In this document: positions 1-64,000 of the stretch, one piece after another
Layout of the letters: the number at the start of each line of letters is the position of its first letter
How positions within the stretch are numbered: the first letter of the stretch is position 1
Translations under genes and position numbers: made by a program
Source: Gari tellinella
Lineage: Eukaryota; Mollusca; Bivalvia; Cardiida; Psammobiidae
Reading direction: 5' to 3'
Assembly: GCA_922989275.2 (NCBI GenBank)
Contig: OV277872.1
Location: 29,776,119 to 29,840,118, forward strand
Length of the DNA: 64,000 nt
The notes under the pieces: generated by a model
What the model saw: only the letters and a program-made list of their open reading frames with translations
Told to the model about the DNA's origin: nothing
The model's database searches: none

Positions 1-33
1 GTCCACGGGTTACCTAAAAGGTGTCAACTGCAT

Positions 34-848
34 TCTCTCTTTATCTATCTCTCTCTATATATATATATCTCTCTCTCTTTATCTGTCTATCTGTCTTTTC
101 TCTATAATAATAAATATTCTGTTCTTGTCTCCCTGTCTGTCTGTCTGTTTGTCTGTCTCTCTCTCTCTCTGTCTGTCTCTTTTTATGTCTCTGTCTCTAT
201 GTTTCTATCTCTGTTTATCTGTGTGTATCTTTCTCTCTCTCTCTGTCTCTATCTGTCTGTCTGTATGTGTGTCTGTATCTATGTCTCTCTCAGTCTCCAT
301 ATATCTCTCGCTGGTTCTCTCGCTCTCTACCTGTCAGTATCTCTATCTGTCTCATTCTCTGTCTCGTTGTCTCTGTCTGTCTCTGACTGTCTATCTCTAT
401 GTCTGTCTACTGTCTGTCTTTGTTTCTGTGTCTCTGTCTGTTTTTCTCTCTGTTTTTCTGTATGTCTCTGTGTCTCCCAATGTCTGTCTCTGTCTCTGTC
501 TGGCTCTGTCTTTCTGTATTGCTGACTCTCTTTCCCTCTCTCTCTTTCTCTCTCTCTCTTTCTCTGTCTCTATATCTCTCCGTCGTTCTCTCTCATTCAG
601 TGTTTGTTTTTTGGTTCTCTCTGTCTCTCTGTGTCCGTCTCTCTGTCTGTCTATATACCCGGTATATGTCTCTCTTTCTCTGTTTTTTCTTACTGTCTCT
701 CGCTGTGTTTCTACACCTCTTTCCGTCTCTGATTGTCTCTGTTTGTTTCTCTCTCTGTATATATCTCTATGTCTGTCTCTAACTGTCTGTCTCTCTTCCT
801 GTCTCTGTATCCGTATCTCTATCTCTGTTTGTCTCTGTCTCTGTGTCT
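34..848. repeat. (TCTG/TCTC)n pyrimidine microsatellite
   Basis: About 800 bases of almost pure pyrimidine on this strand, built from TCTG, TCTC, TCTA and TCTT steps. All frames through it are long Ser/Leu/Val/Cys or Arg/Glu/Thr strings, so the apparent ORFs are repeat artefacts. The array is old and impure. Confidence 0.95.
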
Positions 849-1090
849 GATATGGGGACATGTACACAGGCATCCTTTATAATCTCAGAGAGAATGTCGC
901 TTGCGGACGTGTCCCCACTTCTATACGGGAAACATAAGAGAACAGTATGCTGTTTTGTTAACCCTTAACCGGATAAACACATACATGTATCTTTAATTCC
1001 CTATGAAAGAAAATATAATCCACCTTAAAAATCATGAATTCGTAACATAAATAGTTTCTTTATCCTCGCAGATTAAGGAGCGTTCTGCGG

Positions 1091-1215
1091 ATGGAAACCG
1101 GACGAACGGACGGACAAACTTCAAATAGTATCTCTCTGCCTTTCGGGGAGGGGGGGGGGGTAATAATAATCGCAATCATCATCATTTTCACAATCATCAT
1201 CATCATTATCAGCAT
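1091..1215. repeat. GACG microsatellite, poly-G and ATC repeat cluster
   Basis: A short GACGAACGGACGGAC run near 1100 is followed by about 12 G residues near 1150 and an impure ATC/AAT trinucleotide tract to about 1210. The GACG run resembles those that end the tandem arrays elsewhere in the window, but no array precedes this one. Confidence 0.8.
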
Positions 1216-1947
1216 CGGTAGGTACTTAGGTTTAGATGCAAATAAAAGACACAAAACCTTAATGTCATTTTTATATTATATTGAACTTACTAGAATTTGT
1301 CAAACACTATGCACTTCTATCATCAGGCTCTATTTGGCCACTTGCTAGTCATACAAGGAGTGTTTCATAATAAATGCAACTTGATCAAAAACTTTAATAA
1401 TATAAGCGCAAAATGCATGTTTGACAAATCATTAGAAAGAACAATTCATTGCATACACCATGGTATGATGCACGGTAACATAACATAACTAGATAAGTCG
1501 CCACACAAACTAACTGACCCCAAGTCAAGGGCACTGGACCATTTTGGTTTATTAATGAGGTAAATTATCGAACTAATATTGATACTATCATTCATATATT
1601 GAAATAATTTTATGAAACTTTCGGTCAAATAAAATCAGATAATTATGCACATACTACGCAGTTTAAGAATATATCATTTTATAGAGTGACAAAAATATAT
1701 CTAGTTTTTAACTCGTACTGAAAATATCATAAAAATAACACTCCTGTTATGTTCAAGAGTGAAACACATTTTGTTAAATCAAATCAGGCTATAATTGAAG
1801 CAATTCGGATCAAGAAAACTCTCATAATGTTTGAAAATTCATGTCGTTTTCTTTCATAAGCAAAATTAGACCTATCACAAATGGTGATTCATACCAAAAG
1901 TAGTGTCTTCTGTAAAAAAAAAATACATATATCTACATATAATTTGT
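1216..1947. other. AT-rich stretch, nothing recognised
   Basis: AT-rich with no long reading frame, no terminal repeats and no copy of the window's MITE families that I can see. Confidence 0.5.
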
Positions 1948-2770
1948 GTAGTTTGAAGTCAATAGCTCTTATTTTTTCGAAGTTATGCTCCGGAAAAGCC
2001 TAAATTGGGTAAGAATATATCAACAAAGGGTAATAACTCCAAAAATACTGATGATAGAGTTATGGTTCTTGCGCACTGCACTCCTAGTCAATGAGATCTA
2101 TCTGTATATGAAGTTTGAAATCAAAAGGTCTTATTAATTTGAAGTTATGCTCCGGACAAGCCTAAATTGGATAAAAATATAACAACAAAGGGCAACAACT
2201 AAAAAATACTGATGACAGAGTGAATGTTCTTGCGCAATGCACTCCTTGTCAATGAGATCTAACTATATATGAACAAGAAAATCAATAGCTGCTATTCATT
2301 TGAAGTTATGCTCCGGATAAGCCTAAATTGGATAAAAATATAATAACAAAGGGCAATAACTCCAAAAATACTGATGACAGAGTGAATGTTTTTGCGCAGT
2401 GCATTCCTAGTGAAAAAGATCTATCTGTATACGAAGTTTAAATTCAATAGCTCTTATACTTTGGAAGTTATGCTCCCGACAAGCCTAAATTGAATATTAA
2501 TATAACAAAATGAGACCTAACTATATATGAACAATGAAATCAATAGCTCTTATTCATTTGAAGTTATGCTCCTGACAAGCCTAAATTGGGTAAAAATATA
2601 ACAACAAAGGGCAATAACTCCAAATGTACTGATGACAGAGTTGTGGTTCTTGTGCACTGCACTCCTAGTCAATGAGAGCAATCAATATATTAAGTTAATA
2701 TGTAAAGAACTTGAGTTATCGTGACATATCAAAAGTTTTGACGGACAGACAGACGGACAGGACGCAAGGA
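1948..2770. repeat. 161-bp tandem array ending in a GACGGACAG tract
   Basis: The phrase AGTTATGCTCC recurs at about 1981, 2142, 2303, 2466 and 2562, giving a period of about 161 bp with a shortened last unit. Each unit also carries a version of AACAAAGGGCAATAACTCC and CAATGAGATCTA. The array ends at about 2735-2760 in GACGGACAGACAGACGGACAG. Core repeats with a GACG tail recall the tandem-repeat-bearing non-autonomous elements (pearl/Helitron-like) known from bivalves; that assignment is inference. Confidence 0.85.
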
Positions 2771-2774
2771 CATT

Positions 2775-2822
2775 AAATAAAGATGGTGTTGATTATGATG
2801 ATGGTGGTGATGATGATTATAC
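2775..2822. repeat. (GAT)n microsatellite
   Basis: Impure GAT/GGT trinucleotide tract directly after the GACG tail of the preceding array. Confidence 0.7.
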
Positions 2823-2869
2823 CAACAAAAATATCATCTTAAATATTTGGTACTTGCAGTCATTGGTCC

Positions 2870-3050
2870 TAGTTACATTTAGGGCCGCATAGTTACATAT
2901 AAGGCCGGAGTTACATATAGGGCCGTTTTTTGTTACAAGTAGGGCCACTTTTTTTTCGACGTCATTTCGACGTTTAGTTACATTTAGGGCCGTTTAGTTA
3001 CAAGTAGGGCCGCGTAGTTACATTTGGGGCCTAGTTACATATAGGGCCGC
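2870..3050. repeat. Irregular short repeat, TAGTTACATNTAGGGCCG, about 8 copies
   Basis: About eight copies of a 17-18 bp unit with fixed GTTACA and GGGCC parts and variable ATAT, ATTT or AAGT spacers. Spacing is irregular; a T-rich insert holding GACGTCATTTCGACGT lies in the middle. It is not part of any MITE family here. Confidence 0.8.
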
Positions 3051-3054
3051 TACA

Positions 3055-3346
3055 GACGTTATAGGAAGGAACATTGGCTTACATTACAAACAGCTAAAAT
3101 CCAGATCAGACACCGCGTCAGGCGGCGTCTCATCTGGATTCAATCTGTTTTTCTCTCGTCTTTATTTTTTTTCTGTCAAAAAGTCCAATATTTGACTGAG
3201 AAAAACTGCAAATGGCAAGTTTAAGCAGAAGGTTTTGCAGATGTGAAGAGGCTGGACATATTTGTCTGGTTTTGGGGAACGGCGTAAATCGTTGTTGTTA
3301 TGATGGAATCGTTGTTGGGAGGGTCGTTGTAGGGAGGGGCATTGTA
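3055..3346 (+). mobile_element. MITE-B, 5' truncated
   Basis: Carries the B core hairpin (CAGATCAGACACCGCGTC with its inverted arm), the CTCGTC...TTTTTCTGTC segment and the B right end GGGAGGGTCGTTGTAGGG to ATTGTA. The left end with CTCTCTACAACG is missing. Strand is given relative to the copy at 36302. Confidence 0.8.
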
Positions 3347-3349
3347 ATT

Positions 3350-3440
3350 GCAAACAATTTTGGTTCTGATCAGACGACCGCGTTACGCGGGTTCTGATCA
3401 GACGACCGCGTTACGCGGGGTCTGACCAGGATCTAAATTG
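3350..3440. mobile_element. Core-1 hairpin with an internal 28-bp tandem duplication
   Basis: A core-1 hairpin (GCAAACAATTTTGG ... GATCTAAATTGTTTGAC) whose left arm and centre are duplicated exactly: 3362-3389 and 3390-3417 are the same 28 bases. One arm now has two possible partners. Ends of the parent MITE are not clear. Confidence 0.75.
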
Positions 3441-4725
3441 TTTGACACTCATGTCTATACATGTACATACATCTAAATAAATATATAAAGTTTAGATGTG
3501 AGAAATACAAGCAGCAAATAGAAACCGTTGTATAAAACAGATGACGGCATGACAGTGACGGTATTCGTCTTATTCTAGTCAGAATTCGGTTTAGTTAATA
3601 TCAAAATTACACGGAGCAGCGGTATATATCGATTCAAATTATTAAATGCCAATATGACGGACATGTATGCCGTTTGGCCCATCAATGCATATCCGCATCA
3701 CCAGATATCAGCAAATAGTGAAGACGCCGCAATTTGAAACATTTTGTCAGGGTCTGCACTGTTTGCTATTTGATATGACATTAACTGCTGTATGGACAAG
3801 TGTAAACCTATAATGATTTTTTCAGCAAGCACATTCGGAGAGTTCATTGCAATATTCTAGCAGAAAATGGTCATTACTTAGAATTTTTTGTTTTATATTC
3901 ATTGTCCATTGATTGGCCGACAAACTTATGCTTGAAGGCTGACAACTTGACAACTTTCGCAAATAAGCACAATATTCTAAGAGAATTACAGTCATTGCAA
4001 ACAGTTTGATGCCTGAAAAGTCGCCATAATAAAGAGAAAACATTATTTTCTACCGAATTAGACACGAACGAAACACAAACACAATGTGATATCCAGGGCT
4101 GCCATAAGTTGACATGAAAAATCCTAAGATTTCAAAACTTGCATTTTTCAAGTGCGATTTAACGAATCGTACCTTTACCCATTAGCCTTTTTCTCGTTTT
4201 GTTGACATGCGACTACTTAAAACAGGCTGTAAGTAAAGCAGAATGCGCCTGAGGGCGCATTCTGCTTTACTTTCAGCCTGCTTTAAGCTACTATGTACTG
4301 GGAAAAAATCCGGAGATTTAGGAAAAATCCGGAGAAATGGCAGCCCTGGATATCATATAAAAGATCCATGAATTTAGTTGAAACTGAATGGCAACAAAAG
4401 TTTCGAGCCTGCTCAGACGCCGGGAACTCGATGTTTTATCAATCAAATCTAAACATTTAGAGACACAGCAGATGGTTATTGTATGTAGTGTCTTTATGTA
4501 GCAACTATTCTAAGATTGAAAGGGACTTAACAACGTAATTCAATTGTTGCAGAAATATTGACGTATTATGTAATTGCCAAAGCTGACAACTCTTCTGGAA
4601 CTTTTAATGTCAGTGAGTATATTATGAATTGCCAAGTGCAGAAGTATTTTTAATTTGAGAGAAACGGGATATGAAAAATGTATTAGTTGTGAGGTTAATT
4701 TCCGGTTACATGTAAGGACTAGTTC
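3422..4725. repeat. Old dispersed duplication, copy 1 (partner 10085-11195)
   Basis: Blocks in the same order and orientation as 10085-11195: ACAGATGACGGCATGACAG near 3540 with 10165; TGTAAACCTATAATGAT and ATTGTCCATTGATTGGCC near 3803-3910 with 10650-10770; GAATTGCCAAGTGCAG and GTTAATTTCCGGTT near 4625-4705 with 11120-11200. MITE-K interrupts this copy at 4094 and foldback H interrupts the other at 10396. No coding capacity is evident. Confidence 0.8.
4094..4348. mobile_element. MITE-K (hAT-like ends) enclosing a MITE-F fragment
   Basis: Ends CAGGGCTGCCAT and ATGGCAGCCCTG are exact inverted repeats, flanked on both sides by GATATC (4088-4093 and 4349-4354), a possible 6-bp target duplication. 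The interior from about 4172 to 4300 is a MITE-F piece including its core-2 hairpin (GCAGAATGCGCC and inverse). Termini of CAGGG type suggest hAT, but hAT duplications are normally 8 bp. Confidence 0.8.
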
Positions 4726-4817
4726 TATAGTAACAACGAGATGCGTTGGAGTACTAATCATGTAGTATTATCGTCGGCGTCAAAGTTGTCATGTGACAAC
4801 ATACACCAATGAGTTTG

Positions 4818-4995
4818 TACACTGCAAAAGAAATAACTCTTCCCCGTTAGAACGTTTATTCTAAAACAAATATTGCCGCTGCAAACAGTTTGGTGTCAGA
4901 TTAAACTTCAAACTGTTTACCACTGAGATTCAAATAAATCTTCAACAGGTTCTGTCTTTATACAATTTAGTGTATTGCGTTTCTGTTTTGTTTCT
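4818..4995. mobile_element. Degraded MITE-A
   Basis: TACACTGCAAAAGAAATAAC start, GTTAGAACGTTTATTCTAAAACAA, a CAAACAGTTTGG arm and GTGTATTGCGTTTCTGTTTTG show a diverged A copy with most of the GC-rich hairpin centre lost. Confidence 0.55.
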
Positions 4996-5014
4996 TTCAG
5001 CGGGGATTAATTAA

Positions 5015-5264
5015 TACAGTGGAGAATCTGTTATTCTTTCCTAATAAACGCGGTTACGCTAAAACTATTATTTGCAGTGCAAACATTTTGGAGCCAAATC
5101 AGACGCCGGGTAACCCGGCGTCTGATCAGGCTCCAAACTGTTTGCCACCAAGATAAACAAGAATTATCAGAATTATCCAAAAGTTGTTCTTTTCTACGTT
5201 TTAGTGCTTTGCGTTTGTGTACGTTTGCGTTTAAACGGGAAAGAATAACAGATTCTCCACTGTA
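5015..5264 (-). mobile_element. MITE-A, full length
   Basis: Complete 250-bp copy: TACAGTGGAGAATCTG left end, AATAAACGCG, core-1 hairpin with GGGTAACCC centre, GTTTAAACGGG and CTCCACTGTA right end. It lies inverted with respect to the copy at 5417. Confidence 0.92.
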
Positions 5265-17515: not shown

Positions 17516-17724
17516 TTAACTCTTTACATGCTAGCGGCGGATGTATCTGCAAATTATTATCTTTACAAATAGTTTGGATCCTGATGAGACGCCACATAAC
17601 GCGGTGTCTCATCAGGATCCAAACTGTTTGACACTCTGACCCCGTTTTGAAAATTCTTGTTTTAGAACAGTAGCAGACGACAATTGTTGCAGACGAAAAA
17701 ATTACCCAGCATGCAAAGAGTTAA
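17516..17724 (-). mobile_element. MITE-D variant with TTAACTCTTTACATGC ends
   Basis: 209 bp between TTAACTCTTTACATGCT and AGCATGCAAAGAGTTAA, exact inverted repeats. Perfect core-1 hairpin (CCTGATGAGACGCC and inverse) and two GCAGACGA modules near 17672 and 17690. Confidence 0.88.
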
Positions 17725-17917
17725 GCACAAAACGAACCGGAGGTCAACATCCAATATACTTCTGAACAACAACTAATAGGGGGCTAGAATTAATTTCCTT
17801 ACTGTCTGGTAAACTTGATAGTATGAACAAACATTAATCACTCGACTTTTCTACGAACCGTACAAACACACTAGAGAAGACGTTTCTCTTTCCCAATAGA
17901 CAGATTATACATGTATA

Positions 17918-18487
17918 TGTTACAGTCAATCTGTGTAATCAGTCATTTCACGAAATGACTCAATTTTTCAGTCATTACGTGAAATGACTGTTTCACTTAG
18001 TCATTTCACAAAATGCCTGAACTTTTCAGGAATTTCGTGAAATGACTGAAATTGAAAGGCCACTTCTACACAAATTGGCTAGAAACCTTTAACAGGATTC
18101 AGGCAATGTGTGAAATGACTTTTATTTAATTAATTCAACAGCAGTTGTTCATTCATGTCTTTTGATATGCTTACAATGTTTTAAAACTTAATATCTTACA
18201 ATTATTCCAAAAACATTGCACGCATTTTTTAAAGATTTAAGAGACTTAATTGTATTAAATTTAATATATGCATGTATTGTTGCAATAGTGTAGTTTGTAA
18301 TTATCAAGATATACCAATCATTAAGATTAAATAAATGAAGCTTAAGTCAATTTAGTCATTTCGTGAAATGACTGAAGTAGTATTTTAGTCATTTCACGAA
18401 ATGACTGAAAATTTTAGGCCTTGCATGAAATGACTAAGTGAAACAGTCATTTCACGTTATGACTGATTACACAGATTGACTGTAACA
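17918..18487. mobile_element. Element G: 570-bp DNA element with arrays of GTCATTTCRYGAAATGAC
   Basis: The ends are exact inverted repeats over at least 28 bp (TGTTACAGTCAATCTGTGTA inward), flanked by TATA at 17914-17917 and 18488-18491. Both subterminal zones carry several copies of the near-palindrome TCATTTCACGAAATGA (four or five per side), which look like transposase-binding sites. The middle is AT-rich and non-coding. The duplicate locus near 22330-22345 lacks the element and keeps a single TATA. Superfamily not assigned. Confidence 0.9.
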
Positions 18488-18588
18488 TATACAAGAATGT
18501 CGTTTGAAAAGAGTTTGGAGACAGATCAGACTCGGATTCGTTTCGGATTAAGATGAAACGCCAGGTCATCAAAACATGTCAGAGGGGC

Positions 18589-23927: not shown

Positions 23928-24135
23928 TACAGTAAAACCTCCCTATTACGACCACTAAAACGAAGGCTAATTGAATGTATAATAGAAAGGTGACCGCTTA
24001 AAGCACGGTGACAGTGAAACAGAAAGCTCCTTAAGGAGCTTTCTGTTTCACTGTCACCGTGCTTTAAGCGGTCACCTACTGTAAGCCCTAATAATTAACA
24101 CAATTTAGTGGTCGTAATAGAGAGGTTTTACTGTA
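23928..24135. mobile_element. MITE-E, full length
   Basis: Best E copy: TACAGTAAAACCTCCCTATT to GAGGTTTTACTGTA, 208 bp, with a long perfect core-2 hairpin at about 23989-24078 (GTGACCGCTTAAAGC, AAACAGAAAGCTCC, TTAAGGAGC and inverse). Confidence 0.93.
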
Positions 24136-31819: not shown

Positions 31820-32278
31820 ATCTCTTTACCACTATAATGTCGTCTGCTTCAATAATGCTGTCTGCAATATTATTTGAAAGTTATATGTCTGGGCAGTATG
31901 TCTGACGTAATCTAAAACGAGTGTCAAACAGTTTGGATCCTGTTTAGACATCGCGTAACGCGCCGTCTGCTCAGGACTCAAACTGTTTGCAAATGTGCCA
32001 TTTAACCCTTTACCCAATAACCCGTTTATAACATTAAATACAGGTACTCACTTAAAGCAGGTTGAAAGTAAAGCAGAATGTGCCTTAAGGCACATTCTGC
32101 TTTACTTTCAGCCTGCTTTAAACTACCATCTGCTAGGTTATATAAAATATTTGTTATGATAATTGTTCATGAGGGTATAAACTGGAACTATTTTCTTCAG
32201 CGGAGGAATAAATTAAATACGCTAAAAGTCGCTTCTATGGGGGAAAGGGTTAAGGTCATTGACAGTGAAAGGGTTAAA
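31820..32278 (-). mobile_element. MITE-C split by a MITE-F
   Basis: Left part to about 32001 holds ATAATGTCGTCTGCTTCAAT and the core-1 hairpin (ACATCGCGTAACGCGCCGTC). The C right end GTCATTGACAGTGAAAGGGT then TAA follows the nested F at 32254-32278. Confidence 0.85.
32002..32253 (+). mobile_element. MITE-F nested in MITE-C
   Basis: TTAACCCTTTACCC to GAAAGGGTTAA, 252 bp, perfect core-2 hairpin (GCAGAATGTGCCTTAAGGCA). Insertion at TTAA. Confidence 0.93.
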
Positions 32279-32312: not shown

Positions 32313-32770
32313 TCTGAAGTATATCCTCACTATTACGACCACTAAATTGTGTTAATTATTATGTGTTTACATCAGGTGACTGCTTAACCCTTTACCTGAT
32401 AGCCTATTTCTATTACTTAAGATATGTGACTACTTAAAGCAGGTTGAAAGTAAAGCAGAATGCGCCTTAGGGCGCATTCTGCTTTACTTTCAGTCTGCTT
32501 TAAGCTATAATGTGCTATAATATAGAAAATATTCCCAATAATTCATATCCATACTGATTAAATTCAAACTATTTTCTTCAGCGGATGAATAAATCATATC
32601 CGCTAAAAGGCGCTTCTATTAGGGAAAGGGTTAAAGACGGTGACAGTAAAACAGAGAGCCTCTGTAGGAGCTTTCTGTTTAATTTTCACAATGCTTCAAG
32701 CTGTCACTTGCCTTTTTTACAATCAATTAACCTTCGCTTTAGTGACTGTAACAGAGAGGTTTTATTGTTC
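32313..32770. mobile_element. MITE-E split by a MITE-F
   Basis: Left part CCTCACTATTACGACCACTA to GGTGACTGC (32383). The right part resumes at AGACGGTGACAGTAAAACAG (32635) and runs through GAGCTTTCTG and the inverse arm to GAGGTTTTATTG. Confidence 0.88.
32384..32634 (+). mobile_element. MITE-F nested in MITE-E
   Basis: TTAACCCTTTACCTGA to GGGAAAGGGTTAA, 251 bp. It lies exactly in the CTTAAAGC of the E hairpin arm, so TTAA is both target and duplication. Hairpin GCAGAATGCGCCTTAGGGCG with inverse. Confidence 0.94.
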
Positions 32771-32928: not shown

Positions 32929-33190
32929 ATAGTGGAAAAGACGTTATTATTTCCCGTTAAACATACACATACAAAGGTCCGAAGTATTGTCTTTAAACGC
33001 AAACGTATTTTAGTTTTATAGAAACTCTACTAATTAAAAATGGCTTACGATTTAATCTGAATGTAAACAGTTTAAAGCTTGATCAGACGCTTGGTTACCC
33101 GGCGTCTCATTTGAATCCTTACTGTTTGCAATCGAAATATTAAATTCAGCATAAACCTGTTTTTTGAAAAGGATAACGTCTTTCCATCGT
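32929..33190 (+). mobile_element. MITE-A, diverged with a small internal insertion
   Basis: ATAGTGGAAAAGACGTTATT; GTTAAACATACACATAC followed by a second TTTAAACGCAAACG suggests a short duplication in the left arm. Hairpin CTTGGTTACCCGGCG. Confidence 0.8.
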
Positions 33191-33504: not shown

Positions 33505-33746
33505 ACACGTTTTATTATATACCTACCAATGTTCTGCCCGAAATATTTCCGTATTTGATCGAACAAATACACCTTGACGGATTGAAAATTCCGTATTACC
33601 CATGTACCTTGTGTAATGGGGAAAGAACGTTTACTGTGTAGTCGGAAGTTCGGAACTACTTTACACACTACAGGGGCATAGAAAATAGCTATAAACATTT
33701 CTTTCGTTTTTTATTTTATTATTATTATATGAGGTATATAATAAAA
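33505..33746. other. Short unassigned AT-rich stretch
   Basis: No family signature seen; TTATTATTATTAT simple sequence near 33715. Confidence 0.4.
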
Positions 33747-33905
33747 GGAACATTACTATACTTTGCATATCTTATGTACCGGATCACTCGAGTTGTGTGT
33801 GTAAAGGCTATATCCAACTCGACCTTCGGTCTCGTTGGATATAGCCTTTACACACACAACTCGAGTGATCCGGTGCATAAGATATGCAAAGTATAGTAAT
33901 ATTCC
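33747..33905. repeat. Long near-perfect palindrome (arms about 75 bp)
   Basis: ATTACTATACTTTGCATATC ... GGATATAGCCTTTACACACA forms a hairpin centred on ACCTTCGGT near 33834. Only one or two mismatches are visible in the arms (GTACCGG against CCGGTGC). It matches none of the MITE families. Confidence 0.93.
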
Positions 33906-33940
33906 GTTTATACTCGACATTTAATACATTTGTATCACTA

Positions 33941-36068: not shown

Positions 36069-36678
36069 GTACAAGGGAGAAAACGTTATTCTTTACAAAA
36101 ATAGCGTTTACGCTAAAACTATTATTTGCAGTGCAAACATTGTGGAGCCGGATCAGACGCCGGGTTACCCGGCGTCTGATCAGGTTCCGAACTGTTTGCC
36201 TCTCAGATGAAAATAAATGGTCAAAGTTATCAAAAGGTTGACATTTTATCCATTTTTGTAGCACTGCGTTTGCGTTTCGTTTGCGTGTAAATCGAAAGAA
36301 ATACAGCGTTCCCTTTTTACAACGACAACCAATGGGAGACAACGATTGTGTTCGTTGTTCTGAGGGAGTCGTTATAGGGAGGGAAATTGGTTTACATTTG
36401 CAAACAGCTTGAATCCAGATCAGACGCCGCGTAACGCGGCGTCTGACCTGGATTCAAGCTGTTTGTCACTCGTCATTATTGTTTTTCTGTCAAAATGTAT
36501 AATATGTAAATTTGAGAAAACAGCAGACGACAATTTTAAGTACACTATATTGCAGCCGTGAAAAGGTTGGACATATTTACATTGTTTCGGGAACAACGGA
36601 GATAGTAGTTGTAAGGAGGGGACCCTTGTTCGGAGGGCAGTTGTAGAGAGGGAGTACTGTACTCTCTTCTCCACTGTA
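36069..36678 (-). mobile_element. MITE-A split by a MITE-B
   Basis: Left 36069-36303: TACAAGGGAGAAAACG, GCGTTTACGCTAAAACTATT, a hairpin with GGGTTACCC although this orientation normally has GGGTAACCC, GCGTTTCGTTTGCG. The terminal CTCTTCTCCACTGTA follows the nested B at 36662-36678. Confidence 0.88.
36302..36661 (+). mobile_element. MITE-B nested in MITE-A, full length
   Basis: TACAGCGTTCCCTTTTTACA to GAGGGAGTACTGTA, 360 bp. Host A sequence continues on both sides at a shared TA. Clean hairpin (GAATCCAGATCAGACGCCGC and inverse). I use this as the reference B. Confidence 0.94.
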
Positions 36679-40551: not shown

Positions 40552-40658
40552 AACAGTAAACCCCCTCTATTACCACCAATAAGTTGTGTTCATTCTCATG
40601 CACTTGTTTAAGGCAGGTTCCTTCTTAAAGCAATATGAACGTACAAAAGAGAGCTCTC
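40552..40658. mobile_element. MITE-E left half, cut by a MITE-C
   Basis: ACAGTAAACCCCCTCTATTA, CCACCAATAAGTTGTGTTCA, left core-2 arm to AAAAGAGAGCTC. A possible E right end (ATTATCGTAATAGAAAGGTT) lies at 41205-41237, beyond a C and an F. Confidence 0.75.
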
Positions 40659-40904
40659 CAACCCTTTCACTTTGAATGACGTCATAAAGCCCATTTGCAA
40701 ACAGTTTTTATCCTGATCAGACGCCGCGTAAAGCGGCGTCTGATCAGGATCAAACCTGTTAGCCATTTATTTTGAAATTACTTCAGTTATACAGCCTTAA
40801 ATCTAACATTGAAACGATATTGCAGACAAAATTATTGAAACAGACATTAATATCGCGGTGAAGGGTAAAAACCTCACGATAAATTTGATCATGAAAGGGT
40901 TAAA
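40659..40904 (+). mobile_element. MITE-C, full length (reference copy)
   Basis: CAACCCTTTCACTTTGAATG, GACGTCATAAAGCCC, a near-perfect hairpin (CTGATCAGACGCCGCGTAAA), TTGAAACGATATTGCAGACA, GATAAATTTGATCATGAAAG then GGTTAA. Confidence 0.92.
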
Positions 40905-40944
40905 GATGTCGAATTTACCTTTCATTTGACTCTCATATAGTCTA

Positions 40945-43198: not shown

Positions 43199-43238
43199 TT
43201 CAAGGTTGATCTAAAGACATTTGCAATATTAGTCAATA

Positions 43239-43913
43239 CTGTGCCCTCTCCTTACAACAACGCCCACTGGGAGACAAAGAGTCTGTGTGTTGTTCGGAGG
43301 GAGTAGTTATAGGGAGGGAACCCGGCTAACATTTGCAAACAGTTTGAATCCAAGCTGTTTGTCATTCGTCCTTATGTTTTTCAGTCTGTCAAAATGTCCA
43401 GTATGTGCCTTTGAGAAAAACAGCAGACGACCATTTTAAGCAGACGATATTGCAGTCTTGAAACATGTATTGATATACAGCGCTCCCTCTCTACAACGAC
43501 ACCCAATGGGAGACAAATAGTATGTGCGTTGTTCGGAGGGAGTCGTTATAGGTAGGGAACTTATTTTACATTTGCAAACAACTCGAAGCCAGATCAGACG
43601 CCGCGTAACGCGGCGTCTGATCTGGATTCAAGCTGTTTGTCTTTTGTCATTATAATTTTTTCTGTCAAAATGTCATTTATGTAAGAATAACAGCAGACAA
43701 CAATTTTAAGTAGACGATGATGCATCAGTGCAAGCATAAAACATGATTTTCGTGGGAACAGCGGTGAATGTCGTTGTAAGGAGGGAGTAGTTGTTGGGAG
43801 GGTCGTTGTAGAGAGGGAACGTTGTAATTGTCTTGCTTAGAGAACAGCGGCTATAGCATTGTTGTAAGGAGGGAAGCGTTGCTCAGAGGGTCGTTGTGGG
43901 AAATGTACAGCAA
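43239..43913 (+). mobile_element. MITE-B split by a second MITE-B
   Basis: Left 43239-43475: GTGCCCTCTCCTTACAACAA, a collapsed hairpin (TTTGAATCCAAGCTGTTTG), AGCAGACGACCATTTTAAGC. Right from 43827: TTGTCTTGCTTAGAGAACAG and GGGAAGCGTTGCTCAGAGG. Confidence 0.86.
43476..43826 (+). mobile_element. MITE-B nested in MITE-B, full length
   Basis: TACAGCGCTCCCTCTCTACA to GAGGGAACGTTGTA, 351 bp, with an intact hairpin. The outer B resumes at once on the right, with TA shared. Confidence 0.92.
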
Positions 43914-44011: not shown

Positions 44012-44454
44012 TTTACTGCCATTGTGACGTCATAATGTTTGCTTCCATACTATCGTCTGTTTAGATTTTCTGTCTACTTTCAGCTATACAAGTTGGCGTA
44101 TTGTGCGCTTTTGACTAAAATAAATCATTGATACAGTGGAGAATCTGTTATTCTTTCCCGTTTAAACGCAAACGTACGCAAACGCAAAGCACTAAAACGT
44201 AGAAAAGAACAAATTTTGGACAATTCTGATAATTCTTGTTTATCTTGGTGGCAAACAGTTTGGAGCCTGATCAGACGCCGGGTTACCCGGCGTCTGATCT
44301 GGCTCCAAACTGTTTGCACTGCAAATAATAGTTTTAGCGTAAACGCGTTTATTGGGAAAGAATAACAGATTATCCACTGTAACAGACTCAAACAGCTTTG
44401 ACTTTTATCAGACGCCGCTAGTCGCATATGTATTGTAGGAAATTATAGGGTTAA
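44012..44454. mobile_element. TTAA-type element (C/D-like) split by a MITE-A
   Basis: TTAACCCTTTTACTGCCATT, GACGTCATAATGTTTGC, TCGTCTG near 44060. After the nested A: CAAACAGCTTTGACTTTTAT, CAGACGCCGC, ending TATAGGGTTAA. Confidence 0.75.
44132..44381 (+). mobile_element. MITE-A, nested, full length
   Basis: 250 bp near consensus; TACAGTGGAGAATCTG to TATCCACTGTA, GGGTTACCC centre. Confidence 0.93.
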
Positions 44455-44475: not shown

Positions 44476-44781
44476 TACAGTGCTTCTTCCCTACAACGAC
44501 CCTCTAAACAACGATCCCGTCCTTACAAAATTGCTTGCCGATGTTCCTCAAACATCACAACTATGTCGAACACTTTCACTGCTATCGTCTGCTTAAAACT
44601 GTCGTCTGCTGTTTTTTTCTAAAAATTACATATTCAATAGATATTTTGACAGAAGAAATATTATTTGCAAATGTAGATCTTAAGTAAAATCTTAATTTCC
44701 CCTCCCTATAACAACTCCCTCCGAACAACACACCCACTCTGTGTCTCCCACGGGGAGTTATTGTAGGGAGGGAGCTCTGTA
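44476..44781 (-). mobile_element. MITE-B without the hairpin
   Basis: TACAGTGCTTCTTCCCTACA to GGAGGGAGCTCTGTA, 306 bp. The region that should hold core 1 reads GAAGAAATATTATTTGCAAA, so the whole hairpin is deleted. Confidence 0.88.
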
Positions 44782-45186: not shown

Positions 45187-45387
45187 AAGGCTGGTCCATT
45201 TTCGACTACTTAGGTGGGGTTTTTTAATAATGTTTTACAAAATGACAAACAGTGAAGACCCTGATCAGAGGGCTCCTGCAGGAGCCCTCTGACCAGGGAC
45301 TTCACTATTTGCATTTTACAAGTGTACTCGGTACTGGTACACTTTTGGTAAAAGATGCATATATGCGTCACTAGGGTTCAATGAGTT
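45187..45387. mobile_element. MITE-I
   Basis: Hairpin CAAACAGTGAAGACCCTGAT with inverse around AGAGGGCTCCTGCAGGAGCC. Right side GATGCATATATGCGTCACTA then GGTTCAATGAGTTAA. CAAACAG and GATCAGA positions match core 1 but the centre is different. Confidence 0.82.
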
Positions 45388-49680: not shown

Positions 49681-49890
49681 TTACCCTTTTACTCTAAATG
49701 ACGTCATAAAGCGTATTTGCAACCAGTTTTGATCTTGATCAGACGCCGCGTAACGCGGCGACTGATCAGGATCAAAACTGGTTGTTACTTGTTTTGCCAT
49801 TTGTTTTGAAATTACGTCAGCTACACTGCCTTAAATGTAACTTTGATCCGATAATGCAGACAACAATATTGAAGCAGACGGACATTCGTG
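49681..49890 (+). mobile_element. MITE-C, right end truncated at a mariner remnant
   Basis: TTACCCTTTTACTCTAAATG, hairpin CTTGATCAGACGCCGCGTAA with inverse, GCAGACAACAATATTGAAGC, AGACGGACATTCGTGGG; the GATCATGAAAGGGTTAA end is lost. Confidence 0.85.
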
Positions 49891-49900
49891 GGAGAGACAG

Positions 49901-50725
49901 GCTAAAAATGTTGCCATCTCTAAAATAAGTGATAATGAGAAATATCTACTGAAGATTCATGCACGAATGACAACCAGTCAAGTAGCTAAATGCCTGGGCA
50001 TATCGACGGGATCAGTATATAAGATTTCGAAGAATAAATTAGGAGCTAGCCGTATTGGTGCTAGGTGGATACCCCATTTACTGACGGAGGATCAAATGAG
50101 ATACTGTGTTTCGATTACCCGTAAATTGCTTAAGATGTATCCTAAATTTAATAAAAGAGCATTTTCAAATGTTTGGACTGTCGATAAAGCATGGGTAAAC
50201 TTCTATCAGCCCACCAGAAAATGTAGCAACACAATAAGAAGATTATCCATTGCAAAACGTTTTACAAGTGTGAAGAAGGTCATGTCAATATTCTTTAACA
50301 GTCGCGGTGAGAGTTCATGTAGCGATTCCCCGTAAAAAAACATAAATGGGAAACTCTGCCAACGACAAGTTGTGAAAAGGTTTGAGAAAACCGTAAACAA
50401 GTCTCGGTATACGAGGACTTACCCTGTTGCAGGACAATGCAACAGCAGACACCTCAGCATGAATAATCGCATGTCTGGAGAAGAAATAACTTACACTTTG
50501 CCTGCACCCATTTTTTCACGATATATACTTCCATGCGACTCTTTCTTGTTTCCATGTATGACAAAAACGTTCGAGGGTCGGATATATATATCAAGACACT
50601 TGAAAACAGGCTGTTGGAGCGGCAGTATTGCAGTGTCTTAAGGGTGTACCTAAGAAAGACTACGCCGAAGCTTGCCAGAAATGGATTGTGTATTCGTTCA
50701 AAGGAGGTGTAGTTTTAAGGGATGC
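49901..50725 (+). pseudogene. mariner-family transposase, broken
   Basis: Transposase of a Tc1/mariner-superfamily DNA transposon (cuts and pastes at TA), now inactive. An N-terminal HTH-like part (TTSQVAKCLGISTGSVYKIS) is followed by ARWIPHLLTEDQ, the WVPHLL-type mariner motif, then TVDKAWVNFYQP (first catalytic Asp, GAT 50183). After a stop at 50333 the same frame continues. The second Asp (QDNATADTS, GAC 50433) is in another frame, and the third lies in ILPCDSFLFP (GAC 50537). The two are 104 nt apart, one base short of the 35-codon spacing of D34D mariner. A further frameshift precedes VPKKDYAEACQKW near 50646-50685. At least one stop and two or three frameshifts. Terminal inverted repeats were not found. 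Confidence 0.9.
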
Positions 50726-54265: not shown

Positions 54266-54454
54266 CCCTGGTTGTCACGTGATGCCAAATCTTACCTGAA
54301 AGGTCTCTGCACCATACTAGCTACACTCTCTTGGACACATATTTCAAAGTTCTCAACATTGATCCGACCAGCTGGTTCGTCACTATTTCGTATTTCCATT
54401 ACATGTATATATACTTGTATGTTAATGGAAACACATCCAGTAAGCGGCTAGCAT
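54266..54454. other. Unassigned spacer
   Basis: No element recognised between L and MITE-I. Confidence 0.35.
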
Positions 54455-54704
54455 TTACTCATTGAGCCCTAGTGACGCATATATGCGTACTCTACCAAAA
54501 GTGTACATGTGAAGAGTACACTTGTCTTATGCAAACAGTGAAGTCCCTGACTAAAGGGCTCCTACAGGAGCCCTCTAATCAGGGACTTCACTGTTTGTCA
54601 TTGTGTAATATATTATAGAAAAACAACCCTAAATATTCTAAAATGGACCAGTCTTTATTGTAAACTGGAATCATCCATTGAAAATCTCAGGGGATAATGA
54701 GTTA
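54455..54704. mobile_element. MITE-I, best copy
   Basis: TTACTCATTGAGCCCTAGTG to GGGGATAATGAGTTAA, about 250 bp; palindrome GACGCATATATGCGT near 54475; hairpin CAAACAGTGAAGTCCCTGAC and inverse around AAGGGCTCCTACAGGAGCCC. Confidence 0.87.
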
Positions 54705-54894
54705 AAGCACGATTTGGGATTTCACGGTAAACGTTGTAGCTACATACTTGTAAATTCTGTATGTTTTTATTTTAGACCTTCATCTACTATAATTATAATC
54801 TATAATAAAGGTACACGAACTCCGCCAGGAGTTTTGACTGTATAATTAGGACAACCCTGGTAACATAGATGGGACTTTAAATCAAACTACTCTG

Positions 54895-56358: not shown

Positions 56359-56571
56359 TTAACCCTTATCCTGCGGTGATGTCGTCTGCTTCGAAATTGT
56401 CGTCTGCAAAGTTTGTTAATTTTAGAAATGTACATTTTTAAAGTAAATAAACCAAAAGACGAGTGTCAAACAGTTTGGATCCAGATCAGACGCCGCGTTA
56501 CGCGGCGTCTGATCTGGATCTAAACTGTTTGCAAAAATCAATAAAGTCGCGACCAGCAGGCAAAGGGTTAA
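56359..56571 (+). mobile_element. MITE-D, full length (reference copy)
   Basis: TTAACCCTTATCCTGCGGTG to CAGCAGGCAAAGGGTTAA, 213 bp. GTCGTCTGC occurs twice (56382, 56400). Perfect core-1 hairpin (GGATCCAGATCAGACGCCGC and inverse). Confidence 0.94.
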
Positions 56572-58778: not shown

Positions 58779-58847
58779 GGTGGATTACCACGCAATAGCA
58801 GTGGATTATCACTTGGTAATCCACTGCAGTGGATTATCACCAATCGC
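58779..58847. repeat. GTGGATTAYCAC mini-palindrome cluster
   Basis: Four direct or inverted copies of GTGGATTATCAC/GGTAATCCAC in 70 bp; GTGGATTATCACTTGGTAAT then CCAC is itself a hairpin. Confidence 0.8.
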
Positions 58848-59171
58848 TTTTATAATGAATTTTCCCCGTAGGGCTCCCCAAGAATCGTAGTCAATCGTGT
58901 CTTATCGTTAAATTTCGGCAGTCCGATTTGTCGCGAACTACTCACCGGGAGGGCACGAATCCAAACTCGGGAGCAACGAAGTAATTCGGATGACGTCAAA
59001 TCAATAGATAAGTGACGTCATCGTACGGGAAACTGTTTCGAAAATGTGTTCGATATAAAGTTGGGGCTCAACACGGGGTAAATCATTTACTTTCGCTTTC
59101 TCAATTGTCGAACAATTTCGTTTAAAACGTGGCTTAAAAGCATAAATAAATAGAAAAATTGTACTTTTTTC
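58848..59171. other. Unassigned stretch
   Basis: Mixed composition, no element recognised. Confidence 0.4.
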
Positions 59172-59300
59172 AGTATAAGATCGAATTTAATCCATTTCGT
59201 GAACATCAGACTGTTATATTTTCACCAGTGGCTTCGCCACTCGTGAAAATATAACGTCTGATGTTCACGAAATGGATTAAATTTCTATCTTATACTGAAA
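59172..59300. repeat. Long near-perfect palindrome (arms about 55 bp)
   Basis: CAGTATAAGATCGAATTTAA, CCATTTCGTGAACATCAGAC, TATATTTTCAC pair with the inverse to TTATACTG around GTGGCTTCGCCAC. Similar in design to 33747-33905 but with a different sequence. Confidence 0.92.
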
Positions 59301-59384
59301 TTTTTTTTTATCCTCTATGACATTTTTTTTAAACATTTGGATCTACTATTATTATCCATGTAACAAACATATTATGAACTGATC

Positions 59385-59498
59385 AAAAGACCGGTTACAC
59401 GGCGTCTGATATTGCTCCAAACTGTTTGCAATGAAAATAAAGTTTGAACATAATAATGCGTTGACTGAAAATAAAATACGACGTCTTTTTCTCCGTAC
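59385..59498 (+). mobile_element. MITE-A right half
   Basis: GACCGGTTACACGGCGTCTG, GCTCCAAACTGTTTGCAATG, AATGCGTTGACTG, GACGTCTTTTTCTCCGTAC; starts at the hairpin centre. Confidence 0.75.
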
Positions 59499-59501
59499 AT
59501 G

Positions 59502-59711
59502 TACAATGGAGAACACGTTATTCTTTCCCAATAAAACGCGTTTACACTAAAACTATTAGTTCCAATGCAAACATTTTAAAGCAAAATCAGACTCCACATT
59601 GTTCGTCACTCATTTTAAAATGAATTGTCAAATAGTTGTCATCTTTCACATTTTATGACAACGCGTTTGCGTTTCGTATAAATTGGAAATAATGACGTCT
59701 TCTCCATTGTA
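59502..59711 (-). mobile_element. MITE-A lacking the hairpin centre
   Basis: TACAATGGAGAACACGTTAT to GTCTTCTCCATTGTA, 210 bp; CAAAATCAGACTCCACATTG shows the arms joined with the GC part deleted. Confidence 0.87.
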
Positions 59712-59913
59712 TTCTGCGGGTATGGTATTGCAAATTACAACCACAACAGCAAGTAACAAGCATCTTTATTGCTACAAATTATAGGGCTTACAACGGATAA
59801 CGAATGTGATAATGTTGCATTCTGTCAACAAATGTGTTAATGACATGAAATAATGACGTTAACGTATCCCTCGATCTAACATAATGTTATACGCTGCTGT
59901 CATTCAAATACAT

Positions 59914-60263
59914 TACAATGCTACCTCTCTACAACGGCCCTTCCAACAACGACTCCCTCCTTACAACGACCTTTGTCACAGTTCCCTAGAAAAGACAATC
60001 ATTTCTAACGCTTTTACTGCTGCAATGTCGTCTGCTTAAAGTTGTCGTCTGCTGTTTTACATAATGAACATTTTGACGGAAATAACTTAATGAGGAGTGA
60101 CAAACAGCTTGAATCCAGATCAGACGCCGCGTAACGCGGCGTCTGATCTGGAATCAAGCTGTTTGCAAATGTACGCTAATGTCCCTCCCTATAACGACTC
60201 CCTCCGAACAACGCACATTATTGTTGTTTCCCATTGGATGATTTGTAGAGAGGGAGCACTGTA
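59914..60263 (-). mobile_element. MITE-B, full length
   Basis: TACAATGCTACCTCTCTACA to GAGGGAGCACTGTA, 350 bp; near-perfect hairpin; TCGTCTGCTTAAAGTTGTCG then TCTGC module. Confidence 0.93.
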
Positions 60264-60348
60264 TTAACTTGGGTCTAACACGTCTAACCCATTCATGCAA
60301 ACTGGCTTATTCCATGCGTATATATTGGATACGTCCGTTTTTTATAAC

Positions 60349-60602
60349 TTAACCCTTTCACGATCAAATTTATCGTGTGATTTTTACCCCTTCACCGTTT
60401 CATTGTCGTCTGGTTCAATTTTGTTGTTTGAAATATCGTTTCAAAATTAGATTGAAGGCAGTATATTTGATGTAATTACAAACAAGTGGCAAACAGTTTA
60501 GATTCTGACCAGGTGCCGCGTAAGGCTTATGCTCAAATCTGACCAATCGAATGCCTTAGAACAACTCAGACACAACTCAAATTCTTTACACCCTTGGATC
60601 CT
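60349..60602 (-). mobile_element. MITE-C joined at its hairpin to half of foldback H
   Basis: TTAACCCTTTCACGATCAAA, TTTCATTGTCGTCTGGTTCA, CAGTTTAGATTCTGACCAGG, GCCGCGTAAGG; at about 60526 this changes into GCTCAAATCTGACCAATCGA ... CTTGGATCCTGG, one arm of H. Confidence 0.75.
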
Positions 60603-60769
60603 GGTAGAGTTGTCAATTTTAATTTGAAGGGGTCAATGAGAAAACTAGGATTCAAGTTATAAAGACTCAATAGAATTGCGGATCTTAAATCTCGCGATTT
60701 GAGTTAATATATCGGTATGCTCTAGAGAGACCAATATCATTTTCTAAGCAACATCTCAAAATATGGTTG

Positions 60770-61013
60770 ACCCCTTTTACTCTCAATGGCGTCATTCAGC
60801 ACGTTTACAAACAGTTTGGATCCTGATCAGACGCCGCGTAACGCGGCGTCTGATCAGGATCAAAACTGTTTGACATTCTTTTTGAAATTTCTTCAGTCAT
60901 ATTGCTTTAAATTTAACTTTGAAACGATATGGCACCCATCAAAATTGAAGCAGACGACAATGAAACGGTGAAGGGGTAAACATCTAACGATTAATTTGGC
61001 AGCGAAATGAGTA
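60770..61013 (+). mobile_element. MITE-C, full length
   Basis: CCCCTTTTACTCTCAATGGC, perfect hairpin (CCTGATCAGACGCCGCGTAA and inverse), GAAGCAGACGACAATGAAAC, GATTAATTTGGCAGCGAAAT. Confidence 0.88.
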
Positions 61014-61176
61014 AGGGTTTGTATTAGATCGATGGGTTTTTCAGTTGCCTGCGCAATAGAACTCTCTGAGGGAATCATACAATAAATCAGCAAAGACAGG
61101 TCCGGCCGTGAATGATCACTTTTCAGATATTGTGAATGTCATTATGTGTAACGGTGAAAAAATGCGTCCACTTTTT

Positions 61177-62933
61177 AACAGAACAGAACAGAACATATGT
61201 TCCATTGACTTGTACATAGTACATCATAATATATACATGTAATATTATCTATAGCATATAACATATTCATATCATATTCAAAGTTATAACCAAATTGAAT
61301 ATAAAAGTCATATTAAAGTATGTAGTGCTAAGCAAATAGAGGATGAATTACGTACTATGAGTAAAGTTACAACGAAAGGAGAAAGCAGATTTAAGATATT
61401 TAGCAAGATTCAGTAAAGTGACATAATCTTCCGTTCGGAGCATTTCTATAAATTTAAACATGCTGGGTCTAATACAGTACAAATAATCCTTTTATATTAT
61501 ATTCATTTTGAAGTCTGAAAAACATGATCAGTTAATCATACAGTGGTATTCATCTTCTTGTTCTGTACTTCTGCAATACACAGAGCATCTCTCATCTAAA
61601 CTCATCCCTGAAAATGTTAATGGAGAATTTAGCCTAGTCCTTTATTTATTTTTGGGGTTGAGTTGACCATTATATCATTTAAAAATTATAAACAGGACTA
61701 ACCCTGATACACGTAGTTCTGCAAGATAACTCTGACCAGGGTCTACAAGGTGTACATAGGACAAGTGTATACGTCACAGGTGAAAGTGTTTGTTAATGAC
61801 GAGCATATAGTTACAGTTGAGAAGACGTTATTCTTAAATGCATAAAAAAGCAAATGCATTGTAATAAAATGTTAAAAATTGTTTGCAATAGAAAAAACAG
61901 TTTAAACGTAATTTAATATATTTGGAAAGAATTGTATAATACATTCAAAAAGACGATACTACTTTTTGCGGTTGTCTGAAAATATACATAAGGCATTTAG
62001 ACATTTAAATACATACTCTATCTTACAAATAAAGCTGTACATAGCACCTCAATGGTATTGTCTAAATACATGTATGGCAGCCTTCTAGCTATATACATGT
62101 ATGTATGTATATTTTTATTAAAAGGTTATGGTTGACATGGTGCATTTAGCTAAATTGATTTTAAAGGTTGAGTACACAATACATGGTTTTATGCTGGGGT
62201 GGAGAACGCAGCAGTACAGGCACTCATTATCAGTGGGCATTCGTTTTTCCGATAAAGCAGATTCGTTCAAAGTGACGGTATTGTTGACACTAATCTTACA
62301 TACATGATTTTGTAGAAGAGAATCTGAGTTAGAGATGAAAGAATAAGCAATAGCAGTTAATTTGTATTTTGAAAGACATCTGGTATGAAACTGTATGTTA
62401 CAGACGCTGTGTCAAAAAGGTACATACGAATACTTTAATTTTCTTTATATACACAGTGGATGAAAGATGAGTATTTTTAAAGGGAAATGATTTTTCGTTT
62501 TTCTTTCATTGAACTAAGCCTAAAGAGAACTGACATCGAGGGTTAGCAACACATCAATGCAATGTGCGATGATACCGCATCATTAGTATGATATATTGTT
62601 TGACCTACATTACACAATTTTTGCATATTAGTGTATAAAACAGGGCTTTGAAGTCTTAATTCACGCGTCATCTAATCAATTGACAACTACGGACATAAAC
62701 CCGGTAATTTGCTGTTTGATGCTGCAGTTGTGCTGTTCATTAGGGTCAATTATTAACGTCAGGTGAATTGATAACGCTAACGAGACAACTGTAGACAGTT
62801 ACAGCGGAGACTACCTTAATAATAGTATTCATCTTCGTATTGTCACGTGATGTTATATGTTTGTGAATATTTATATGTGACTAAGATGATGTACTTTGTA
62901 CAAATCTGAATACAATTATGTTCTGTTCTGTTC
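61177..62933. mobile_element. 1.76-kb element with AACAGAACAGAACAT inverted ends
   Basis: Left AACAGAACAGAACAGAACAT then TTGTACATAGTACATCA; right TGATGTACTTTGTACAAATC then ATGTTCTGTTCTGTTC. The reverse complement of the right aligns over about 45 bp with gaps. The interior is AT-rich, holds a degraded MITE-A (61812) and has no transposase. Superfamily unknown. Confidence 0.6.
61812..61935 (+). mobile_element. Degraded MITE-A inside the 1.76-kb element
   Basis: TACAGTTGAGAAGACGTTAT, AAAAAGCAAATGCATTGTAA, TAAAATGTTAAAAATTGTTT, GCAATAGAAAAAACAG, AATTTAATATATTTGGAAAG: hairpin lost. Confidence 0.65.
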
Positions 62934-63314
62934 TTATTCTTTACCAATAAACGCGTTTACGTTAAAACTATTATTTGAATTGAAATCGGTTTGAAGCCAG
63001 ATCAGACGCAGGGCACTTTATTATCAGGCGTTTGATCAGTCTCCAAAATGTTTGTCACTCAGAGTATAGAAACAGTTTGAGTTGTCATAGGTTGTACTTT
63101 TCTTCAATTTATTGCACTGCGTGTGCGTTTAAACAGGAACATAATGCCCATATACAATTTTCCAGATGCTTGCTTGAGTAGTCTATATGAATGTGTATAT
63201 CGTGTTTTACAACTATTGTTGATACAGGGAAGGGAACAATAATTAGGTTCGCCTGTATAATTCATACAAAATGTGTCATCTTCAAGGTCACAATTTGACA
63301 ACTTTTACAGCCTA

Positions 63315-63400
63315 GCCAGATTATTATTATACCAGATTTATATAGCGCTCTTTTCACACAGGGATTGTGCGTTCAAAAGCGCTTTACATGAAATAACACT
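63315..63400. repeat. TATATAGCGC dispersed repeat with ATT tail
   Basis: ATTATTATTATACCAGATTT, ATATAGCGCTCTTTTCACAC, GGGATTGTGCGTTCAAAAGC, CGCTTTACATGAAAT; inverse copy at 49375. Confidence 0.82.
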
Positions 63401-63419
63401 TATGTACCTATAAATCGTG

Positions 63420-63765
63420 AAAAGACAAAATAACTACAATTAGATCTGAAATAAAACATGAATAAACATATAAAAGACAGTCCCCCAAAACGGCGATCAC
63501 ATTACCCCCATCAATCAGCAATGAACCGACCGGCTAAGTATTGCCGACTGATATAAATAATGGTAGAGCGCCCAATGCAGGCCATCGACAAAACACAAAT
63601 AACTATAATTAGATCTAAAATAAATAAGAATAAACATACAAAAGACAGCCCCCAAAACGGCAATCATACTACCCCCATCAATCAGCAATGAACCAACCGG
63701 CTAAAGATTGCCGACCAATAGAAATAATAGCAGAGCGCCCAATGCAGGCCATCTAATGTAACATA
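63420..63765. repeat. 168-bp tandem repeat, 2 units
   Basis: AAATAACTACAATTAGATCT at 63429 and AAATAACTATAATTAGATCT at 63597; both continue with CAATCAGCAATGAACC and GAGCGCCCAATGCAGGCCAT. About 90% similar. No GACG tail is seen. Confidence 0.9.
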
Positions 63766-64000
63766 ACTAGGAATAATAGCATGCGACCATAACTAAAAAC
63801 CCTATAGAAGATCAATAACATTATTAAAAATGGTGAAAGCTGTCCACGAATTGTACCACAGACCACGCCAGCTGGTTTCAAAAGAGATCAGAGTTGTATC
63901 CCTACCATCAAAGATCCACCAGACAGGCATTGGTCAACAGTACAACCCCAGAACTAAACATTAGACCCATAACATATACAGAATGAACACAGCCCTAGGG
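63766..64000. other. Unassigned, runs off the window
   Basis: Nothing recognised; it may continue the element that holds the 168-bp repeat. Confidence 0.35.

Follow-up and report, generated by a model that had tools for sequence, protein, structure and literature searches.

Two hairpin cores shared by miniature transposable elements of different target-site classes in the bivalve Gari tellinella

A 64-kb stretch of the genome of the bivalve Gari tellinella (contig OV277872.1, positions 29,776,119 to 29,840,118; the whole of these 64,000 nucleotides is referred to below as the window) carries several families of miniature inverted-repeat transposable elements (MITEs) built around one or the other of two hairpin-forming cores. 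An earlier note on this DNA had described six example elements, labelled A to F, in which each core lies both between TA-type and between TTAA-type ends, and had proposed that the hairpin is a module separate from the ends. All six loci hold the elements described and both cores do occur in TA-ended and TTAA-ended elements, but the extent is larger than first noted, and core 2 also sits in a third kind of element, which has target-site duplications of 6 bp. All the results reported here come from one genome, of which 264 kb were read: the window and a 200-kb sample made up of 20 stretches of 10 kb (L024-L043 among them; 5,974 N in total).

Elements and cores in the window

Core 1 is a near-perfect palindrome of 65 nt in which CAAACAG and CCWGATCAGACGCC are followed by their inverse, and its carriers were sorted into families by flank clustering and consensus building. 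Two of these families have TA ends: A (consensus of 250 bp from 21 aligned copies), represented by the reverse-strand element at 44132..44381 with ends TACAGTGGAGAA and a core of the GGAGCC type at 44251-44317, and B (370 bp, 10 copies), represented by the forward-strand element at 36302..36661, whose core (GAATCC type, 36401-36465) and right interior are those of a D-like TTAA element. Two other B elements, at 44476-44781 and 43226-43558, have kept both arms with the hairpin almost wholly deleted. TTAA ends are found in C (249 bp, 9 copies; forward strand, about 40657..40903, core at 40698-40762, the left TTAA having decayed to CCAA here), in D (213 bp, 2 copies; reverse strand, 56359..56571, core at 56467-56531), in G (209 bp, a single copy with ends TTAACTCTTT; forward strand, 17516..17724, with a variant of the core at 17566-17630) and in H, of which there are three window copies, one on the forward strand at approximately 54454..54705 and others near 45246 and 21664; the core-1 relative in H has a different stem top (CAAACAGTGAAGTCCCTGA.., 54532-54597).

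Core 2, also a near-perfect palindrome, of about 70 nt, is carried by three kinds of element, all of whose examples here lie on the forward strand. E has TA ends (TACAGTAAAACC) and at 23928..24135 contains a perfect palindrome of 90 nt (23988-24077). F has TTAA on both sides and is found at 32002..32253 (core at 32051-32121) and again at 32384..32634 (TTAA at 32384 and 32631, core at 32433-32504), where it interrupts a second E element (32320..32769, ends approximate) at the TTAA of that element's own core 2. Family I, whose ends read CAGGGCTGCCA and whose direct repeats are about 6 bp long, is represented at 4094..4348, between two GATATC repeats, by an element containing part of an F, including core 2 at 4216-4287. 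Other I copies, likewise with core 2 and a fossil F end, lie in the sample at L024 2500-2755 (repeat TGGAAC) and L035 4807-4939 (TTAACC or 7 bp).

The inverted ends and consensus lengths of these elements (209-370 bp in A, B, C, D and G, 252 bp in F) are those of MITEs, short non-coding elements with terminal inverted repeats. TA, TTAA and 6-bp target sites are the marks of different transposases. Like Tc1/mariner MITEs, A, B and E have a TA target duplication at inverted ends, which here are of the form TACAGT..ACTGTA, and from their CAGT start we take them to be pogo-like. TTAA on both sides and a CC[C/T]T terminal motif, by which piggyBac/TTAA MITEs are defined (PMC2872659), are both present in C, D and F; the consensus ends of C and F read TTAACCCTTT..AAAGGGTTAA, and those of D differ from each other, with TTAACCCTT at one and TAAGGGTTAA at the other. 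G and H (ends TTAACTCATT) have TTAA sites and lack the motif. The labels piggyBac-type and pogo-like are assigned from target sites and end motifs and should be regarded as putative.

Both cores are frequent. A search of the window with nhmmer and 34 seed cores yielded 118 merged core-1 matches at E<10, 51 of them above 45 bits and near full length, and for core 2 the number of merged matches at E<1 was 18, of which 13 exceeded 15 bits; above 45 bits, the 200-kb sample holds 57 matches to core 1 and 62 to core 2. Over 1,597,604,326 bases in 80 contigs the core-1 half-motif CCWGATCAGACGCC has 468,889 exact matches (234,422 forward and 234,467 reverse), against 1 forward and 0 reverse for the same pattern read backwards. 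In a blind control, elements were picked by their ends alone and then scored for a core at E<=1e-3, which was present in 89 of 96 (26 of 28 with ends TACAGTGGAGAA, 6 of 7 with TACAGTGCTCCC.., 7 of 9 with TACAGTAAAACC.. and 50 of 52 with TTAACCCTTT), as compared with a background of 21-26% in random intervals of equal lengths; paired reversed end motifs for the four end types gave 0, 0, 0 and 2 elements. Viral contigs gave 15 chance matches to a 17-mer, none with the CAAACAG arm, and no match to core 2; the open reading frame running through core 1 had no protein match; Rfam at its gathering score gave 0 matches in the window, and no known RNA family is indicated; and six short strings sought in published text matched only papers with unrelated titles.

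Cores, ends and traces of capture

If the palindrome were swapped between MITE families, through gene conversion or the action of a recombinase that resolves hairpins, cores and ends should come apart, and the identical 65-nt core type in TA and TTAA elements seems at first sight to point that way. Between families, however, the agreement of core and ends is complete. A tree of 50 cores, built on 65 columns and with few branches resolved, accommodates 5 family labels with 4 changes, the least possible, as against a mean of 21.0 with shuffled labels; A (support 97/93) and B (91/85) are recovered, the B cores stand next to those of D (93/78), and C accounts for 2 changes with G nested inside it. 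Among the 57 core-1 copies of the sample, 36 could be assigned to a family by both arms, 13 by one and 8 by neither, and in 35 of the 36 both sides are of a single family; in the remaining copy a C element lies directly against an F. A hairpin-resolving recombinase is not needed.

The bare hairpin was also considered as an independent element and found no support: 74 of the 91 core-1 matches above 12 bits in the window touch A, B or C arms, and many of the other 17 resemble, by eye, relics of D, G, H or A, some being undecidable. Of cores lacking MITE ends, which the earlier note had suggested looking for, there is no convincing case, although several decayed ones were unassignable (17 of 91 in the window; 8 of 57 for core 1 and 5 of 62 for core 2 in the sample). 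What stands of the proposed module is that the hairpin sits between unrelated ends and is kept as a unit; its free and repeated exchange is not supported, in view of the 4 label changes, the 35 pure copies among 36 and a homology that continues beyond the core on one side. The shared part is likewise not the palindrome alone, since B, C, D and G also have up to about 100 bp to its right in common. The earlier note had further held that full agreement of core and flank trees, with similarity extending evenly from core into ends, would indicate simple descent; much of that agreement is present and argues against continuing exchange between families, but homology runs unevenly from core into ends, a pattern that fits capture.

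Traces of capture are seen in B, in I and in the F inserted in E. B and D are identical at 144 of 166 aligned bases over the stretch that runs from the core to D's terminus, and B departs from D exactly past the decayed TTAA terminus (B AAGCGTTAG, D AAGGGTTAA). Aligned on their own, the right flanks of B and D score 70 against a shuffle maximum of 24; those of B and C, C and D, B and G, and D and G also exceed their own shuffles, C and G narrowly (27 against 26), while no left flanks among core-1 families do so, except for the TTAACCCTTT tip common to C and D. I holds F from the sixth base of F (CCTTTACCCC) through core 2 and some 30-40 bases further, as seen in two long copies. What B carries of a D-like TTAA element is, as the alignments show, the right half, and what I carries of F is the left half. 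Capture is directly visible at 32384-32634, where F lies at a TTAA within an E core, a site that is empty in other E copies. E and F are homologous over 102 nt, which comprise the core and about 21 and 11 bases at its sides. For A and E, where only the hairpin and some 10-20 neighbouring bases remain, an origin by capture is inferred; of the origins weighed by the earlier note, capture is seen for B, I and the F in E. The combinations, in sum, look like old captures and not like continuing swaps.

We regard it as highly unlikely that simple common descent, in which a single ancestral hairpin MITE diverged at its ends without any capture, accounts for all of these families. The right core edge reads NCA[C/T] in all six core-1 families, from which it follows that core 1 has a single orientation, and descent would explain both this and the co-segregation of ends and cores, as well as the TTAA-type ends and the part of the right flank common to C, D and G; among C, D, G and H it may well hold. 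But the TA, TTAA and 6-bp sites of the different families belong to different transposases, and for B and I such descent is contradicted by the fossil TTAA-class ends that they hold inside their own ends.

Pairing and constraint in the hairpin

The folding energies of seven cores lie between -43.7 and -85.4 kcal/mol (z-scores -12 to -19). In a covariation set of 26 cores (23 distinct) that we selected as well preserved, 93.5% of cells are paired, compared with 84.2 when shuffled, two-sided change is seen at 15 of 32 pairs, and covariation scores 0.249, compared with 0.087 for shuffled and 0.032-0.066 for slid alignments. The consensus stems of A, B and C1 vary at six positions (7, 10, 11, 13, 16 and 29), and all but position 16 are paired in all three; position 16 is A-T, T-A or, in A only, a mismatched A.A. 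The subgroup C2 (four copies) has one further unmatched change. Between the cores of E and F there are two-sided differences at 6 pairs and a single changed base in the loop centre. Columns 1-3, 5-7, 15-16, 18-20 and 22-24 show no matched change, so that two blocks would be conserved in sequence besides the blocks that are conserved in pairing; the partition was made post hoc, and copy-level changes are somewhat rarer in the conserved blocks (101 against 143, p 0.009).

Stem changes are thus nearly all matched on both arms between families, whereas among copies they are mostly one-sided: in A, B and C copies 202 stem pairs have changed on one side and 21 on both, 13 of the latter being paired. 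These proportions (202 of 223) rule out in-place correction as the sole source of pairing. Pairing could nevertheless be kept by mutation, if, when the hairpin is replicated, template switching makes one arm a copy of the other and the spread of hairpin elements is neutral; we consider this unlikely. The mechanism is published for matched double changes (PMC8794818), and the 13 such changes exceed a shuffle expectation of about 5.6 (the means for A, B and C summed; p 0.02, 0.08 and 0.12, respectively). Most copy-level changes remain one-sided, however, and correction alone would not lower inherited change in the core below that in the arms.

In family F some observations favour arm-to-arm copying, among them those on stem pair 29. 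Among 37 F copies (L024-L043 and the window) the pair is C-G in 18, T-A in 13 and mixed in 6, and on the F arm tree it switches 9 times between paired states, usually on both sides, against a shuffled mean of 10.2; at least 3 switches are forced by starred branches. A single T-A clade is rejected (p-AU, from the approximately unbiased test, 9e-7), and two sister copies with a common loop variant, at 40935 in the window (C-G) and at L038:1560 (T-A), differ at this pair on both sides. These switches favour swapping, which we nonetheless think improbable: few inner branches of the tree (5 of 34) are starred, which leaves it weak, a first tree had already been seen when the test was run, and pair 29 is linked to its own partner (r2 0.52) but to other core variants by at most 0.16, whereas exchange of whole cores would link them. 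Of the gene conversion suggested by the earlier note there remains, then, that the switching within F favours conversion or arm-to-arm copying; repeated swapping of cores between families is not supported. Matched double changes in F lie next to the loop (22 of 25 in the seven adjoining pairs) and one-sided ones are spread along the stem (21, 29, 18, 13 and 31), which makes arm-to-arm copying near the loop a fair candidate; the loop-side changes fall on two CpG pairs, which are change-prone anyway, and recurrent change there is another. Swapping could also draw on two old A copies, at 33063 and 8586 in the window, whose core markers are inverted relative to the arms (T.T and a central T where other copies have A.A and a central A), which looks like a hairpin flipped in place; at 2 of 45 A copies, the cases are too few to build on.

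The time at which constraint acts can be approached by comparing changes found in single copies with those shared by several. In young A copies (n=13, selected on their right arm) the core and the arms have private changes at equal rates (14/845 and 43/2405; p 0.88), and variants common to several copies number 1 in the core and 19 in the arms. The ratio of singletons to shared changes is higher in the core than in the arms in old A (40:6 and 152:91, p 0.001), in C (40:6 and 133:65, p 0.007) and in F (50:15 and 139:125, p 4e-4), and, F left aside, in the pooled families (123:22 and 553:291, p 1.7e-6). Conservation of the core after insertion was rejected as an account, the first comparison having been biased by the choice of copies on core score; when copies are anchored by their arms, the values for core and arms come closer together (0.106 against 0.135 and 0.157 in A; 0.107 against 0.172 and 0.173 in B).

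Pairing is thus kept between families and inherited change is rare in the core; our inference from this is that selection favours the hairpin while copies propagate, and that it would act through a factor serving elements with different transposases. With moderate confidence we favour the reading that captured hairpin-bearing TTAA MITEs founded the composites and that the hairpin was retained through better propagation. Such piggyBac-type MITEs would have been captured inside other short elements by insertion and later trimmed; each capture would have founded one composite family, once, and that family, with ends of its own, would then have multiplied as a whole; and copies with a well-paired, sequence-conserved hairpin would propagate better, so that the hairpin is kept. 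The factor, acting on elements with different transposases, might be a host protein, RNA processing or the replication of hairpins. A bolder form of the proposal, which we hold only tentatively and think rather doubtful, would make the hairpin, with its blocks CAAACAG and CCWGATCAGA, a transposase-independent spreading module recognised by a host factor, such that any capturing MITE (TA, TTAA or 6-bp) gains copy number and the loop-side stem is re-templated from the other arm.

A number of observations weigh against the favoured reading. As regards capture, the flanks of A have no significant similarity to any other family (best p 0.10-0.13), only the edge bases agreeing, and the flank comparisons did not bear out homology of A's arms with those of other families; A and E contain no fossil TTAA end, and the left half of the captured element is missing from B. 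As regards selection, the contrast between shared and singleton changes is not significant in young A alone (p 0.098) or in B (core 29:9, arms 225:116, p 0.27), where the core also has fewer singletons per site than the arms (0.446 against 0.76); the old A, B, C and F copies, unlike the young A copies, were partly picked by core score; the A.A mismatch is kept in 13 of 13 young A copies; and the states of pair 29 in F lie off the arm tree, which pure descent does not explain. Lastly, among elements located by their arms, 4 of 34 in A and 3 of 19 in B have a core that is lost or badly broken, most of it being deleted, so that the hairpin is not needed once an element is inserted; in our reading it matters for propagation and not for a resident copy.

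Neighbouring features, known systems and meaning

The window also contains an unrelated long palindrome at 33741-33911 (84-base arms, 5 mismatches, a 3-base gap), repeated short palindromes around AGTCATTTCGTGAAATGACT, set in inverted arms, at 17907-18498, and, at 49847-50335, adjoining a C element, an open frame of 162 aa with a weak helix-turn-helix match (26.5 bits against a Pfam cut-off of 27), which by eye we take to be like a fragment of a mariner transposase.

A literature search, mostly at the level of titles, found no published account of these cores or of hairpins common to different MITE classes. The nearest precedent would seem to be the CMITEs of Acropora corals, six TTAA families with a conserved internal region of about 75 bases, in which, with one exception, the type of interior goes with the end family and among which CMITE-IN is a new element formed by one MITE inserting in another (PMC2872659). 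Different ends around a conserved interior, TTAA targets with CC[C/T]T ends and a composite made by insertion are common to both systems; all CMITE families are TTAA, however, whereas the cores described here cross TA, TTAA and 6-bp classes, and the portion of the CMITE account covered mentions neither a hairpin nor matched arm changes (PMC2872659). The printed 60-base CMITE consensus, compared with seven of our consensus sequences (A, B, C, D, G and F among them), gave p 0.06-0.93, none beyond shuffles at p<0.05. MER6, a Tc1/mariner MITE with the conserved V domain of short interspersed elements (SINEs), similarly holds a conserved domain originating in another element class, but the donor is a SINE body and, in the part of the account covered, the event is single and without a hairpin (PMC6887750). 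Made1, the source of hsa-mir-548, is a MITE of about 80 bp whose palindromic sequence folds, as RNA, into a stable hairpin from which a microRNA can be processed; its palindrome consists of its own terminal repeats, unlike the present ones, which are internal and independent of the ends (PMC1784062). Template switching has been described for RNA genes, where matched changes on both stem arms possibly arise in one event, and that likeness extends here only to a possible contribution in F near the loop (PMC8794818). What is different in the present elements is the crossing of target-site classes together with a hairpin that has matched arm changes.

The interiors of MITEs usually count as filler. 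In the elements described here, evolution in spreading copies is slower in the interior than in the arms, and the interior crosses transposase classes and keeps its pairing, which suggests that the hairpin itself may help the elements to spread. This makes the question of what limits MITE amplification testable, and the fossil ends reveal how one MITE class hands its interior to another.

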